64,000 nt of DNA from Gammaproteobacteria bacterium (GCA_021647245.1 JAKIVC010000001.1:1-64000); one strand, 5' to 3'. Positions 51,233 to 55,017 are shown, counted from the first letter of the stretch. Translations and numbers: made by a program. Notes: generated by a model not told the origin, from the sequence alone.

Positions 51233-51910
51233 TTATAGACTGTCCAGTCGATCCAACTCTGCCTTTATCCGCAGGGAGTTGCTCTGCTCTGGGCGCAGTG
51301 TTGAGGCCAGCTCATACTGGTAGCGATCACCGGTAATAAAGTTCTTCACTTCACGCCGTACATAATGTTCTACGGCAGGGGAGTAATTCCAAGTATAACG
51401 CCGTAAAACACGCATACTCTCGCCCGAGTAATGGTCACAAACAATGCGGTAGCTGGCAAACTCACCCGCCAGCACGTGAATATTTTCCTGAGCAGGAACG
51501 CGGCAGCTCCATAGCTCTACACGGCGTGTTTCATGCTGCTTTTTATCATCACGAACGGTCGTCAATACACGAAAGCGGATCTGGTTACCCACGTGTAAAG
51601 GCCACAGCTCATTAACATCGCCATGCAGAGTCCGCTGGCCACTTTTACCCGCCAGTTGCCACTGTATAATAGGCAACACAATATTGCGCTGGCGAGTATA
51701 GTGGCGCCCTTTTCTGGACGAAAAGGTGATCAGGTCACCCTCTATTTTTTCGACATGCTCAACCCGCTTATTGGAAAAAATAAAGGTTTCACCCTCCTCA
51801 TAATCGGGCAGTGGCGCCGGAATTCCATCCTTAGCCTGCGCCCCATTGACGACTAGGCAAGCGATAACAAAAATGGCAATTTGTACAAATATAGCTCTAT
51901 TTTTCAACAT
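51233..51910 (-). CDS. Exported protein of unknown function, downstream of S8 protease
   Basis: This 225-residue protein has a signal peptide (about residues 1-26, FVIACLVVNGAQA/KD). It looks all-beta (FIFSNKRVEHVEKIEGDLITFSS, YTWNYSPAVEHYVRREVK). I know no family. Its start overlaps the end of the subtilisin-like gene by 14 bases, so the two should be co-translated; it might be a substrate, chaperone or partner of that protease. Confidence 0.7.
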   Translation of the reverse strand: MLKNRAIFVQIAIFVIACLVVNGAQAKDGIPAPLPDYEEGETFIFSNKRVEHVEKIEGDLITFSSRKGRHYTRQRNIVLPIIQWQLAGKSGQRTLHGDVNELWPLHVGNQIRFRVLTTVRDDKKQHETRRVELWSCRVPAQENIHVLAGEFASYRIVCDHYSGESMRVLRRYTWNYSPAVEHYVRREVKNFITGDRYQYELASTLRPEQSNSLRIKAELDRLDSL

Positions 51911-53327
51911 TCAGGCTCTCCCCAAGTAGACCATAACCAAAGACCGGGTCACGCCCAGCCGCACCCACATCCACTGCTTGATGCTGTAGTTGCGCAAGTA
52001 AATACTGTTGACGTGCCACGCTCGGTTTATCTAGTCGACTCGCCAATAGTGCGCTGATTACCGGCGCCGCATAGGAAGTACCACTGAACACGCCGTAGCC
52101 ACCTTGTTGATTGGCGGCTTTCACCTTCACACCTTGCGCCGAAAAATCCACATACTGGCCACGATTGGCACGCCGGTATACCTGTCGACTGGCATCCACT
52201 GCGGTCACCGCTATCACCCCTGAATAAGCGGCCGGGTAGAGTGGCGGTGCGGCAGGGCCATCATTACCTACCGCTGCAACCACCACATGCCCCCGCGCCA
52301 GCGTTTTACGCACGGCCACCTGTAGCAACACATTATGTGGCCCGGCCAAGCTCATGTTAATAACGGGGACTCGCTGTTCAACCAGCCAGTTAAGTGCTGA
52401 GGCCAAGCTGTCGGCACTGGCTTTAACACCTCCAGAAACACTCTTGGTAAACACTGCCGCATTATAGAGCGTGGCGTTCGGCAGCAACCCCTGCATAGCG
52501 TCCGACTCCCCCACCAGCACCGAAGCGATACTGGTGCCATGCGTCATAGGCAGCTCACCAGCACCGATGAATGACTGCTGGATAATATGGCTGTTGCGTA
52601 ACGCCTCATGCTCCCTATCCACCGCTGTATCAATCAGCCCGATAACGGGGTTCTCCGCATTCAACTCTAACAGCGGCTCTGTAGCGGAAAGAGAACTGCT
52701 CTCTTCACTATCACGCATGGTTTCGTAAAGATGATTATATTCATACAGGGCATTCTGATCACTCTGCCGCAAGCGTTCAATCGCCTCGCGCACCGAAAGA
52801 TCTTCCGGTGTTTCGATCACCGCAATACTGATACCCAGCGCACCGAGACTTTTTTTACGTAATACTGCGAAACCGAGTGCCTCTATCAACTCCAGAGAGG
52901 TATCATCAGCATCAATAGCGAGGATCTCTTCGGTACGAACAACAAAGCCATAATGATCGAACTCTTCATCCATTTCGTCGATCTCCTCATACTCCTCATC
53001 TATTGAAAACTCCTCATCTTCGACTTCATCATAATCATCGTCATCGTCATCGTCATCGTCATCGTCATCGTCATCGTCATCGTCATCGCCATCGCCATCG
53101 CCATCGCCATCGCCATCGCCATCGCCATCGCCATCATCTTCCTCGACCTCATCTGCATCGTCATCCACATCAAGCTCATCATCGTCTTCATCTGCAATGG
53201 CCTCAGAGACAAAGATCGACAACAGTGCCGTTGCCCGTGGCACTGTCTGCGTCACAGGCTCATTCAGTAGCAAAGTGCTGCCTGCTACACCGAGCAAAAC
53301 GCCCATTATTGCGGTTAATTTTTTCAT
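51897..53327 (-). CDS. S8 (subtilisin-like) serine protease with long Asp/Gly tract
   Basis: This 476-residue exported protease has a signal peptide (KLTAIMGVLLGVAGSTLLL) and a disordered acidic segment (about residues 45-120) made of DG repeats then an Asp run, coded by a hexanucleotide array. A predicted pro-region (about 120-220) follows, then an S8 domain with the Asp motif GLIDTAVD, His in THGTSIASV, Asn in AVGNDGPAAPP and Ser in GVFSGTSYAAPV, all present. The Asp tract could bind Ca2+ or other cations. ATG 53327 follows GAAGAG. It is divergent from an ECF sigma/anti-sigma pair, suggesting common control. Confidence 0.9.
   Translation of the reverse strand: MKKLTAIMGVLLGVAGSTLLLNEPVTQTVPRATALLSIFVSEAIADEDDDELDVDDDADEVEEDDGDGDGDGDGDGDGDGDDDDDDDDDDDDDDDDDDYDEVEDEEFSIDEEYEEIDEMDEEFDHYGFVVRTEEILAIDADDTSLELIEALGFAVLRKKSLGALGISIAVIETPEDLSVREAIERLRQSDQNALYEYNHLYETMRDSEESSSLSATEPLLELNAENPVIGLIDTAVDREHEALRNSHIIQQSFIGAGELPMTHGTSIASVLVGESDAMQGLLPNATLYNAAVFTKSVSGGVKASADSLASALNWLVEQRVPVINMSLAGPHNVLLQVAVRKTLARGHVVVAAVGNDGPAAPPLYPAAYSGVIAVTAVDASRQVYRRANRGQYVDFSAQGVKVKAANQQGGYGVFSGTSYAAPVISALLASRLDKPSVARQQYLLAQLQHQAVDVGAAGRDPVFGYGLLGESLNVEK
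53034..53136. repeat. Imperfect hexanucleotide array coding Asp and Asp-Gly
   Basis: On the plus strand eight perfect TCATCG units (53041-53088) are followed by seven CCATCG units (53089-53130), with degenerate edges. In the protease frame these read GAT-GAC (Asp-Asp) and GAT-GGC (Asp-Gly). The two halves differ by one base per unit. Length changes keep the frame, so copy number can vary without disrupting the protein. Confidence 0.95.
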
Positions 53328-53727
53328 ATTACTCTTCAAAACCATTCAAATTATCTGGTTGTGCTATTTATCTACCCACTCAATAAAGGTTGAAACAGCG
53401 CCATTCAAACCAGCTGTAAATTATGCAGAGCCTCCTTAAATAGATGAGACCTCTGCGCAAGTGGGGTATCAGGTATTAAAAGACACAAAATAGGATACCG
53501 GTATGATGTAAAATAGATTTATGGAATTTTTTAGCCGTGCCCACTAAAGACCGACTGATAACGCTTCCCCCCATCAAGCATAGACCTCATGTAAGCGACT
53601 TCACTTAAATTAAAGACCATATATATGTGCTACAACAACGAGCATCGCCCAATTTTATTCCCTTCAGAAAAATATTTTCACTCTTGTGGAATAAATCACG
53701 ACCCAGGCCGTTATCCCAAGAATGAAG
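53328..53727. promoter_or_regulatory. Divergent promoter region of protease and ECF sigma genes
   Basis: About 400 bases between the two divergent genes, AT-rich, without a supportable gene. It should hold the promoters for both directions. A candidate ECF-like element on the plus strand is GGAATAA at about 53688 followed about 17 bases later by GTTATC, but this is not a firm match. Multiple ATACC/GGTAT half-sites occur near 53467-53505. Confidence 0.45.
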
Positions 53728-53752: not shown

Positions 53753-54244
53753 AGTGACCTCAGACACGAGATTGTCGCACTGATTCCACGATTGCGCCGT
53801 TTTGGTTTGACGCTAACCGGAAATTATCATGACAGTGATGACTTGGTGCAGAGCGCGATTGAACGCGCCCTGAAAAGCCTGAAGAGCTGGGAGCGAGGAA
53901 CACGTTTGGATAGCTGGATGTTTCGAATCACACAAAACCTGTGGATCGACCAGTGCCGAGCCAACCAGCGCCGAGATACCAGCGCCTCAATCGATGAACT
54001 GCATGATTTAAGCGGTGAAGATGGCCGCAAAGTAACCGAGGATCAACTGATGGTGCGTAAAGCGGAGATAGCGATTAGTAAGTTGCCGGAAGAGCAGCGC
54101 AATATTGTGGCCCTGGTATTGGTTGACGGCCTCTCCTACCGCGAAGCATCACATATTCTGGAGGTTCCCATGGGCACCGTAATGAGTCGCCTGGCTCGTG
54201 CCCGTAAAACATTGGCAGGCCAACTACGGCCCGGAGGTGAATAA
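53738..54244 (+). CDS. ECF-family RNA polymerase sigma factor
   Basis: This 168-residue sigma factor has region 2 with LTGNYHDSDDLVQSAIERALKSL (about 27-50) and WMFRITQNLWIDQCR (65-80). Region 4 has LPEEQRNIVALVLVDGLSYREASHILEVPMGTVMSRLARARKTL (about 110-155). It is followed by its probable anti-sigma gene, joined by TAATG. The divergent S8 protease operon is the obvious candidate target. Stimulus unknown. Confidence 0.93.
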   Translation: MNRDESDLRHEIVALIPRLRRFGLTLTGNYHDSDDLVQSAIERALKSLKSWERGTRLDSWMFRITQNLWIDQCRANQRRDTSASIDELHDLSGEDGRKVTEDQLMVRKAEIAISKLPEEQRNIVALVLVDGLSYREASHILEVPMGTVMSRLARARKTLAGQLRPGGE

Positions 54245-55017
54245 TGCCTGTATCTGAACACAATAATATTGATGATAAAATGCTGATTGCTTTTCTGGAT
54301 AATGAGCTCTCAAACGAGCAAATGACTTGGGTAGAACAAGCCATAAATGAGGATGGTGCACTGGCCGCTAGAGCAGAGAGCTTGGCACTAGCCGACGACC
54401 TGGCCTCACAAGCCTATCAACACGCTATGCATGAGCCAACACCTCAGCGCCTCATCGATGCGGTGTGGAAAAAGGGTGCCGAGCAGCCGCGCACTAACGT
54501 GGTAAATTTGGCCAGTCGTCGGCGCTTTTCAGGCTTGCTACCCCTAGCAACCGCCGCTTCATTAGCGCTGGTGGTGGGGGCGATACTCGGGCCACAACTT
54601 ACCAGCGATGACATTGGCACCCATCAATTGGCCCAAACAGGCCAAAGCAACCCCAGCTCACAAAGCGCCTTATATATTGCCTTGGAGAAAACCCCCAGCC
54701 TACAACACTTCGAGGTTGAAAATGGCCATACCATTCTGCCAGTAATGAGCTTTCAGGCCGTTGATGGTCGCTATTGCCGCGAGTTTCAAGTCAATAAAGA
54801 GAGCAGTGTATCTGTAGGTGTTGCCTGCAAACAAGATGGCACCTGGAATACTGAAATTCTGCTCGCAGCTGACCACCACCCGGTAGATCATCAAAACTAT
54901 CAACCCGCCTCAGGGTATAGCCAAATCACACTGGATGCAGTCCTTGATGATCTATGGAGCGGCATCGCCTTCGACCAAACCGAAGAGCAAGCCCTTATCC
55001 AGAAGGCGTGGCGTTAG
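54244..55017 (+). CDS. Anti-sigma factor, membrane-anchored
   Basis: This 257-residue protein has an N-terminal anti-sigma-like helical part (DDKMLIAFLDNELSNEQMTWVEQAI, about residues 11-37), then one membrane helix (about 98-116, LPLATAASLALVVGAILG). The periplasmic domain of about 135 residues includes two Cys and SFQAVDGRYCREFQV. N-terminal pattern and operon position with the ECF gene support its role; it lacks the HxxxCxxC zinc motif. The periplasmic part may sense a signal or be cut by a protease. The family of this domain is not known to me. Confidence 0.85.
   Translation: MPVSEHNNIDDKMLIAFLDNELSNEQMTWVEQAINEDGALAARAESLALADDLASQAYQHAMHEPTPQRLIDAVWKKGAEQPRTNVVNLASRRRFSGLLPLATAASLALVVGAILGPQLTSDDIGTHQLAQTGQSNPSSQSALYIALEKTPSLQHFEVENGHTILPVMSFQAVDGRYCREFQVNKESSVSVGVACKQDGTWNTEILLAADHHPVDHQNYQPASGYSQITLDAVLDDLWSGIAFDQTEEQALIQKAWR

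Follow-up and report, generated by a model that had tools for sequence, protein, structure and literature searches.

An ECF26-type sigma/anti-sigma pair divergent from a subtilisin-like protease operon in a gammaproteobacterium, related to RpoE6-EcfR6/SMa0142 of Sinorhizobium meliloti

Two divergent gene pairs lie between positions 51,233 and 55,017 of the window, a 64,000-nucleotide stretch of DNA from Gammaproteobacteria bacterium (JAKIVC010000001.1:1-64000). One pair, on the plus strand, consists of a gene for an extracytoplasmic function (ECF) sigma factor of 168 amino acids (53738..54244) with Pfam sigma70 regions 2 and 4, and a gene for a membrane anti-sigma factor of 257 amino acids (54244..55017). 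The other, on the minus strand, encodes a subtilisin-like S8 protease of 482 amino acids (51897..53345) and, as second gene of the operon, an exported protein of 225 amino acids (51233..51910), hereafter named the partner. Open reading frame (ORF) calls confirmed the four genes, the 14-base overlap between the protease and partner genes and the TAATG junction between the sigma and anti-sigma genes, all of which had been given in a preliminary description made from the sequence alone. Homologues of the protease favour the MKKL start at 53327 over the one at 53345.

The protease comprises a signal peptide, an acidic tract, a propeptide-like region and a catalytic domain, which was recognised by Pfam as S8 (PF00082, 101 bits) and matched subtilisins in the PDB. 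The complete Asp-His-Asn-Ser set noticed earlier was found as D239, H269, N361 and S424, that is, the S8 catalytic Asp, His and Ser plus the oxyanion Asn, and these residues are invariant in six homologues.

The sigma factor was 48.8% identical to RpoE6 of Sinorhizobium meliloti, and the two proteins were reciprocal best hits; when the window genome (G000) was searched with RpoE6, the window sigma factor came first with 159 bits, and the second-ranking sigma factor scored 57. The best matches of the sigma factor (48.8%) and of the protease (37%) in a plasmid collection included the same S. meliloti loci. RpoE6 has been placed in group ECF26, and its overexpression raises the SMa0142 protease; the same study, in which RpoE6 was not found to have a functional role, reported a divergent serine protease gene as a widely conserved feature of ECF26 and gave the promoter consensus of the group as GGAATA/GT, i.e. 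-35 GGAATA and -10 GT (Lang et al. 2018, PMC6180224). The similarity to RpoE6, the architecture of the anti-sigma factor, the promoter and the divergent protease all suggest that the window sigma factor is an ECF26 protein of the RpoE6 type. The core of the locus matches the published RpoE6-EcfR6/SMa0142 module, and since a divergent serine protease had already been described for ECF26, the suggestion of an undescribed envelope-stress module was not upheld.

Distribution was analysed with an anti-sigma profile in 369 genomes of the class, and a contig scan then added Thauera phenolivorans. Full-length anti-sigma orthologues were present in only seven of the 369 genomes (G000, G002, G203, G067, G209, G095 and G348). 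G002 is a Chromatiales metagenome-assembled genome of the same genus as G000 that also bears the module; the two are closely related and do not count as independent. An S8 protease is divergent from the sigma/anti-sigma pair in the window, G002, G203, Thauera, G095, G348, S. meliloti, Paracoccus and Rhizobium leguminosarum, which makes nine of the ten anti-sigma orthologues with both sides visible, the exception being G209 (the G067 contig stops at the sigma gene). A search with a protease profile gave five matches above 590 bits, and these were exactly the module proteases of the sampled genomes. The co-occurrence proposed in the preliminary description is thus borne out for the sigma/anti-sigma pair with its divergent S8 protease, which is not a chance set, as it recurs in Gamma-, Beta- and Alphaproteobacteria.

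The intergenic regions of seven loci (window, G002, G203, Thauera, G095, G348 and G209) were compared. The motif GGAATAA-N14(15)-CGTT was found upstream of the sigma gene in all seven, in the window at 53688..53712 (+), and an ECF26-type promoter also precedes the sigma gene of the Paracoccus locus. Copies on the other strand, oriented towards the protease gene or, in G209, towards the gene for a poly-Asp protein, were evaluated with a leave-one-out weight matrix trained on the sigma-side sites of the remaining loci only, using 300 dinucleotide shuffles per locus, so that 0.003 is the minimum attainable p. This value was reached in the window (53637..53661, minus strand), in G002, in G203 and in G209; Thauera gave 0.037, G095 0.027 and G348 0.34, and the protease-side promoter was hence significant at six of the seven loci. 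In the window both divergent units carry GGAATAA-N14-CGTT, with the -35 GGAATA and -10 GT of the ECF26 consensus. The promoter listed for SMa0142 (PMC6180224) is the same site that was detected in L168. A shared promoter in the intergenic region, whose absence upstream of the protease had been set beforehand as the refutation test, was therefore present on both sides. This conserved promoter, together with the induction of the S. meliloti orthologue by RpoE6 (PMC6180224), agrees with the earlier proposal that the sigma factor controls the protease operon, and very probably the ECF26 switch turns on the adjoining exported protease.

We consider it likely that the locus is a gammaproteobacterial ECF26 module orthologous to RpoE6-EcfR6/SMa0142, in which the sigma factor drives the protease-partner operon and targets in trans, the protease being mainly an output. 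The observations on which this interpretation is built are the gene set, the orthology, the conservation of the promoter, conserved sites in trans and the domain relations. The membrane anti-sigma factor would hold the sigma factor until an envelope signal meets its periplasmic domain, of the 17-kDa-antigen type; the freed sigma factor would then use GGAATAA-N14-CGTT promoters to transcribe the sigma/anti-sigma operon itself, the divergent operon of protease and partner, and at least two targets in trans, a Porin_4 gene and an operon encoding a P-loop (MobB/DUF1611-like) protein and an ATP-binding cassette (ABC) exporter. The S8 protease would act mainly on exported or surface proteins. The signal, the release mechanism, the substrates of the protease and the function of the partner are inferences. 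Several results weigh against the proposed module: at the thresholds used, neither profile had a match in the same-genus genome G001 or in the same-family genome G003, and the module is therefore patchy or accessory; the protease-side site does not reach significance in G348, and those of Thauera and G095 are weak; and the promoter of RpoE6 itself in S. meliloti lacks a clear GGAATA site. The absence from a genome of the same genus might also mean that the two gene pairs are chance neighbours under independent regulation, but the divergent linkage and the shared promoter recur across several orders and induction has been published in S. meliloti, so that this explanation is largely refuted and now has hardly any probability left.

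Further targets were sought by exact-pattern scans for GGAATAA-N14-CGTT, with the reversed motif as control. Nine sites were found in G000, the two of the module among them, against three for the control. Exact sites precede the Porin_4 gene in four genomes (G000, G002, G067 and G203) and the P-loop/ABC-exporter operon in three (G000, G002 and G067), and when G000 is compared with G067 or G203 the boxes of these trans sites are retained while the spacers have diverged. In Thauera, a two-gene operon that contains a detached partner homologue carries an exact site of its own (L031:2328). The copies at the porin, P-loop/ABC and Thauera partner operons therefore point to a small regulon that is traceable from genome to genome. 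Isolated sites without conservation were given little weight: the window site at 22466, inside tolQ, and several other sites of G000 that are not conserved in other genomes were taken as chance. In G203 a site lies upstream of genes that include a glycosyltransferase. Three other observations concern the exact sites. Between the Thauera promoter and the partner homologue lies a gene for a 250-amino acid lipoprotein of no Pfam family (L031:2416-3168, plus strand); the P-loop gene is followed by an MsbA/CydC-like ABC exporter in L159:2273-5013 (-) and L066:8498-11289 (+); and in G095 an exact promoter copy stands directly downstream of the anti-sigma gene and upstream of a gene for a DUF4382/DUF5666 exported protein (L067:6874-8417, plus strand).

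The partner, described earlier as an exported protein of no known family, had no match in Pfam or NCBIfam. Its AlphaFold model (pLDDT 87) matched Escherichia coli YmcC/GfcB (2IN5) in Foldseek with an E value of 1.7e-6, a probability of 1.00 and a TM-score of 0.48-0.58, and the two proteins are alike in export and in their predicted all-beta fold. From this model, the partner would be an envelope protein with a YmcC/GfcB-like fold. YmcC/GfcB is a lipoprotein that takes part in the export of group 4 capsule (PMC8592465), a function that is not transferable to the partner because the identity is only 8%; the two proteins also differ in that they have no Pfam link and no capsule operon adjoins the partner gene in the window. 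A lipobox is plausible in the Thauera and G209 homologues and ambiguous in the window protein. Only a subset of the loci have the partner, namely those of the window, G002, G203, G209 and Thauera, the Thauera gene being convergent with that of the protease. As the further trans targets also carry the promoter, the proposed set of four genes is not the proper unit.

The anti-sigma factor, of the EcfR6 type by alignment, consists of an N-terminal anti-sigma domain, one membrane segment (residues 98-116) and a periplasmic C-terminal domain. It contains exactly two Cys, 178 and 195, both periplasmic, and no zinc motif, which confirms what had been seen from the sequence. In an alignment of 11 homologues (the window protein, EcfR6 and nine further sequences) C178, R179, C195 and W201 were retained in all, the alphaproteobacterial proteins included. 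Residues 163-209 (54730..54870, plus strand), with the Cys pair, correspond to a domain of the 17-kDa outer-membrane surface antigens (hhalign probability 97.8, E 1.1e-12), and the conserved columns contain the C-R ... A-C-R/K ... W pattern of the 17kDa_Anti_2-type domain. No direct Pfam match of the periplasmic part exceeded the gathering score (only DUF5061 appeared, at E 0.13), and the domain is for that reason called related to PF16998 and is not filed as a member. The antigens of PF16998 carry the homologous domain behind an outer-membrane glycine zipper, whereas in the window it is the putative sensor end of an anti-sigma factor. The periplasmic domain, described earlier as unusual, is not so: it is shared with S. 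meliloti EcfR6 and resembles that of the 17-kDa surface antigens. Foldseek with the anti-sigma model, whose confidence was only 53, gave nothing at E<=0.001, and PDB sequence matches of the anti-sigma profile (E>0.2) were dismissed as low-complexity chance matches. The partner homologue of G209 (L016:5040-6086, plus strand) has an extra C-terminal domain of this same antigen type, so that partner and anti-sigma factor share a domain there.

Sulfite can cleave disulfides, and the invariant Cys pair might thus act as a redox or sulfite sensor in which breakage of the disulfide frees the sigma factor, the more so as other ECF26 sigma factors respond to sulfite (PMC3511301). However, the same pair is also invariant in antigen-type proteins that are not anti-sigma factors; a structural disulfide is therefore the simplest explanation, and a sensing role appears improbable.

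A further question is whether the protease acts back on the sigma factor. The matured enzyme might cleave the periplasmic domain of the anti-sigma factor, in a site-1 role, and so establish positive feedback. Such a circuit would fit the tight linkage of protease and anti-sigma genes, conserved at all but one locus, and the action of both proteins in the periplasm or at the surface; moreover, a second arrangement of ECF sigma, anti-sigma and S8 genes with related proteases exists. In that arrangement an ECF sigma factor, an HC2-type anti-sigma factor and a related S8 protease are encoded on the same strand (L108, L109, L110, L111, L113, L116, L117, L118, L119, L121, L126 and L127). The anti-sigma factors of these co-directional operons are membrane proteins like that of the window, although of the zinc-finger type and with another periplasmic domain, in which a GP motif is conserved and which weakly matches the fervidolysin prodomain (PF22148, best E 8e-4); hhalign found no match between this domain and the adjacent propeptides. 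None of four co-directional loci tested had a GGAATA-type motif, and they probably belong to a different ECF group for that reason. Against feedback in the window type, no designed contact was seen and the anti-sigma domain is unlike the protease propeptide: propeptide mimicry was rejected with hhalign probabilities of 0.15 (window type) and 2.7 (second ECF-S8 type). In addition, G209 retains the anti-sigma factor with no adjoining protease, and the S. meliloti data place the protease among the targets of the sigma factor rather than its activators. Cleavage of the anti-sigma factor by the protease is accordingly judged unlikely, and the protease would more probably be an output than the activator.

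The acidic tract of the protease (52962..53195, minus strand) had been described as an Asp/Gly stretch of about 75 residues. A long acidic, low-complexity tract was indeed found, of 78 residues (41 Asp, 16 Glu and 8 Gly). Cation binding by this tract, reported to the anti-sigma factor, had also been suggested. The tract is very acidic in the window, G002 and G203, and at the G209 locus a 163-amino acid exported protein (L016:2909-3400, minus strand) is encoded where the protease gene would be; it has a long tract of pure Asp, lacks a protease domain and has a strong promoter copy upstream of its gene. Nevertheless, at the same position orthologous proteases may have an Asp/Gly, Asp/Glu, Gly-rich or GGGN-repeat tract or none, and even G000 and G002 do not have the same repeat, an outcome to be expected from slippage. 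Because of this variability a conserved cation sensor is unsupported, and cation signalling through the tract is very improbable.

The window locus is a well-supported gamma/betaproteobacterial variant of the known ECF26 module. It shares with the S. meliloti locus the divergent layout, the anti-sigma periplasmic domain with its Cys pair, the S8 subfamily and the GGAATA...CGTT promoter at the protease. SMa0142 has an Asp/Gly tract too, but a much shorter one; the S. meliloti locus differs further in having no partner gene and in its neighbours, VOC and DUF6065 genes, where the window lineage has the porin and the P-loop/ABC operon. RpoE1/EcfR1 and RpoE4/EcfR4 of S. meliloti (sulfite response; PMC3511301), compared by description only, are likewise ECF26 systems with a membrane anti-sigma factor and GGAATA-type promoters, although their targets are the sorT operon and a lipoprotein and they have no divergent protease. 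The new findings are modest: gamma/betaproteobacterial modules that include the partner, the additional targets and the assignment of the anti-sigma domain. A link of the extra surface genes to the ECF26 switch was not found described in the literature. It is conceivable, though doubtful, that in Gamma- and Betaproteobacteria the switch runs an envelope regulon that had not been recognised before (the protease with its GfcB-like partner, the porin and the P-loop/ABC exporter, in G203 perhaps also a glycan operon), with sensing by the 17-kDa-antigen-type domain and the protease acting back on the anti-sigma factor. No signal or function has been described for ECF26 sigma factors that have a divergent protease, those of S. 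meliloti included. The comparison provides a sharp promoter, a testable regulon with a new member whose fold is recognisable, and a named periplasmic domain that holds an invariant Cys pair, and Thauera phenolivorans is a named isolate in which the question can be addressed.

Two additional ORFs were observed at the locus. Downstream of the anti-sigma gene, a 132-amino acid polar ORF of no family above the cut-off (55155-55553, plus strand) is kept in G002 (L006:2423-2821). Opposite the acidic tract, an antisense ORF of His-Arg repeats (53003-53386, plus strand), open in G002 too, can most probably be explained as a by-product of the GAT/GGC repeat.

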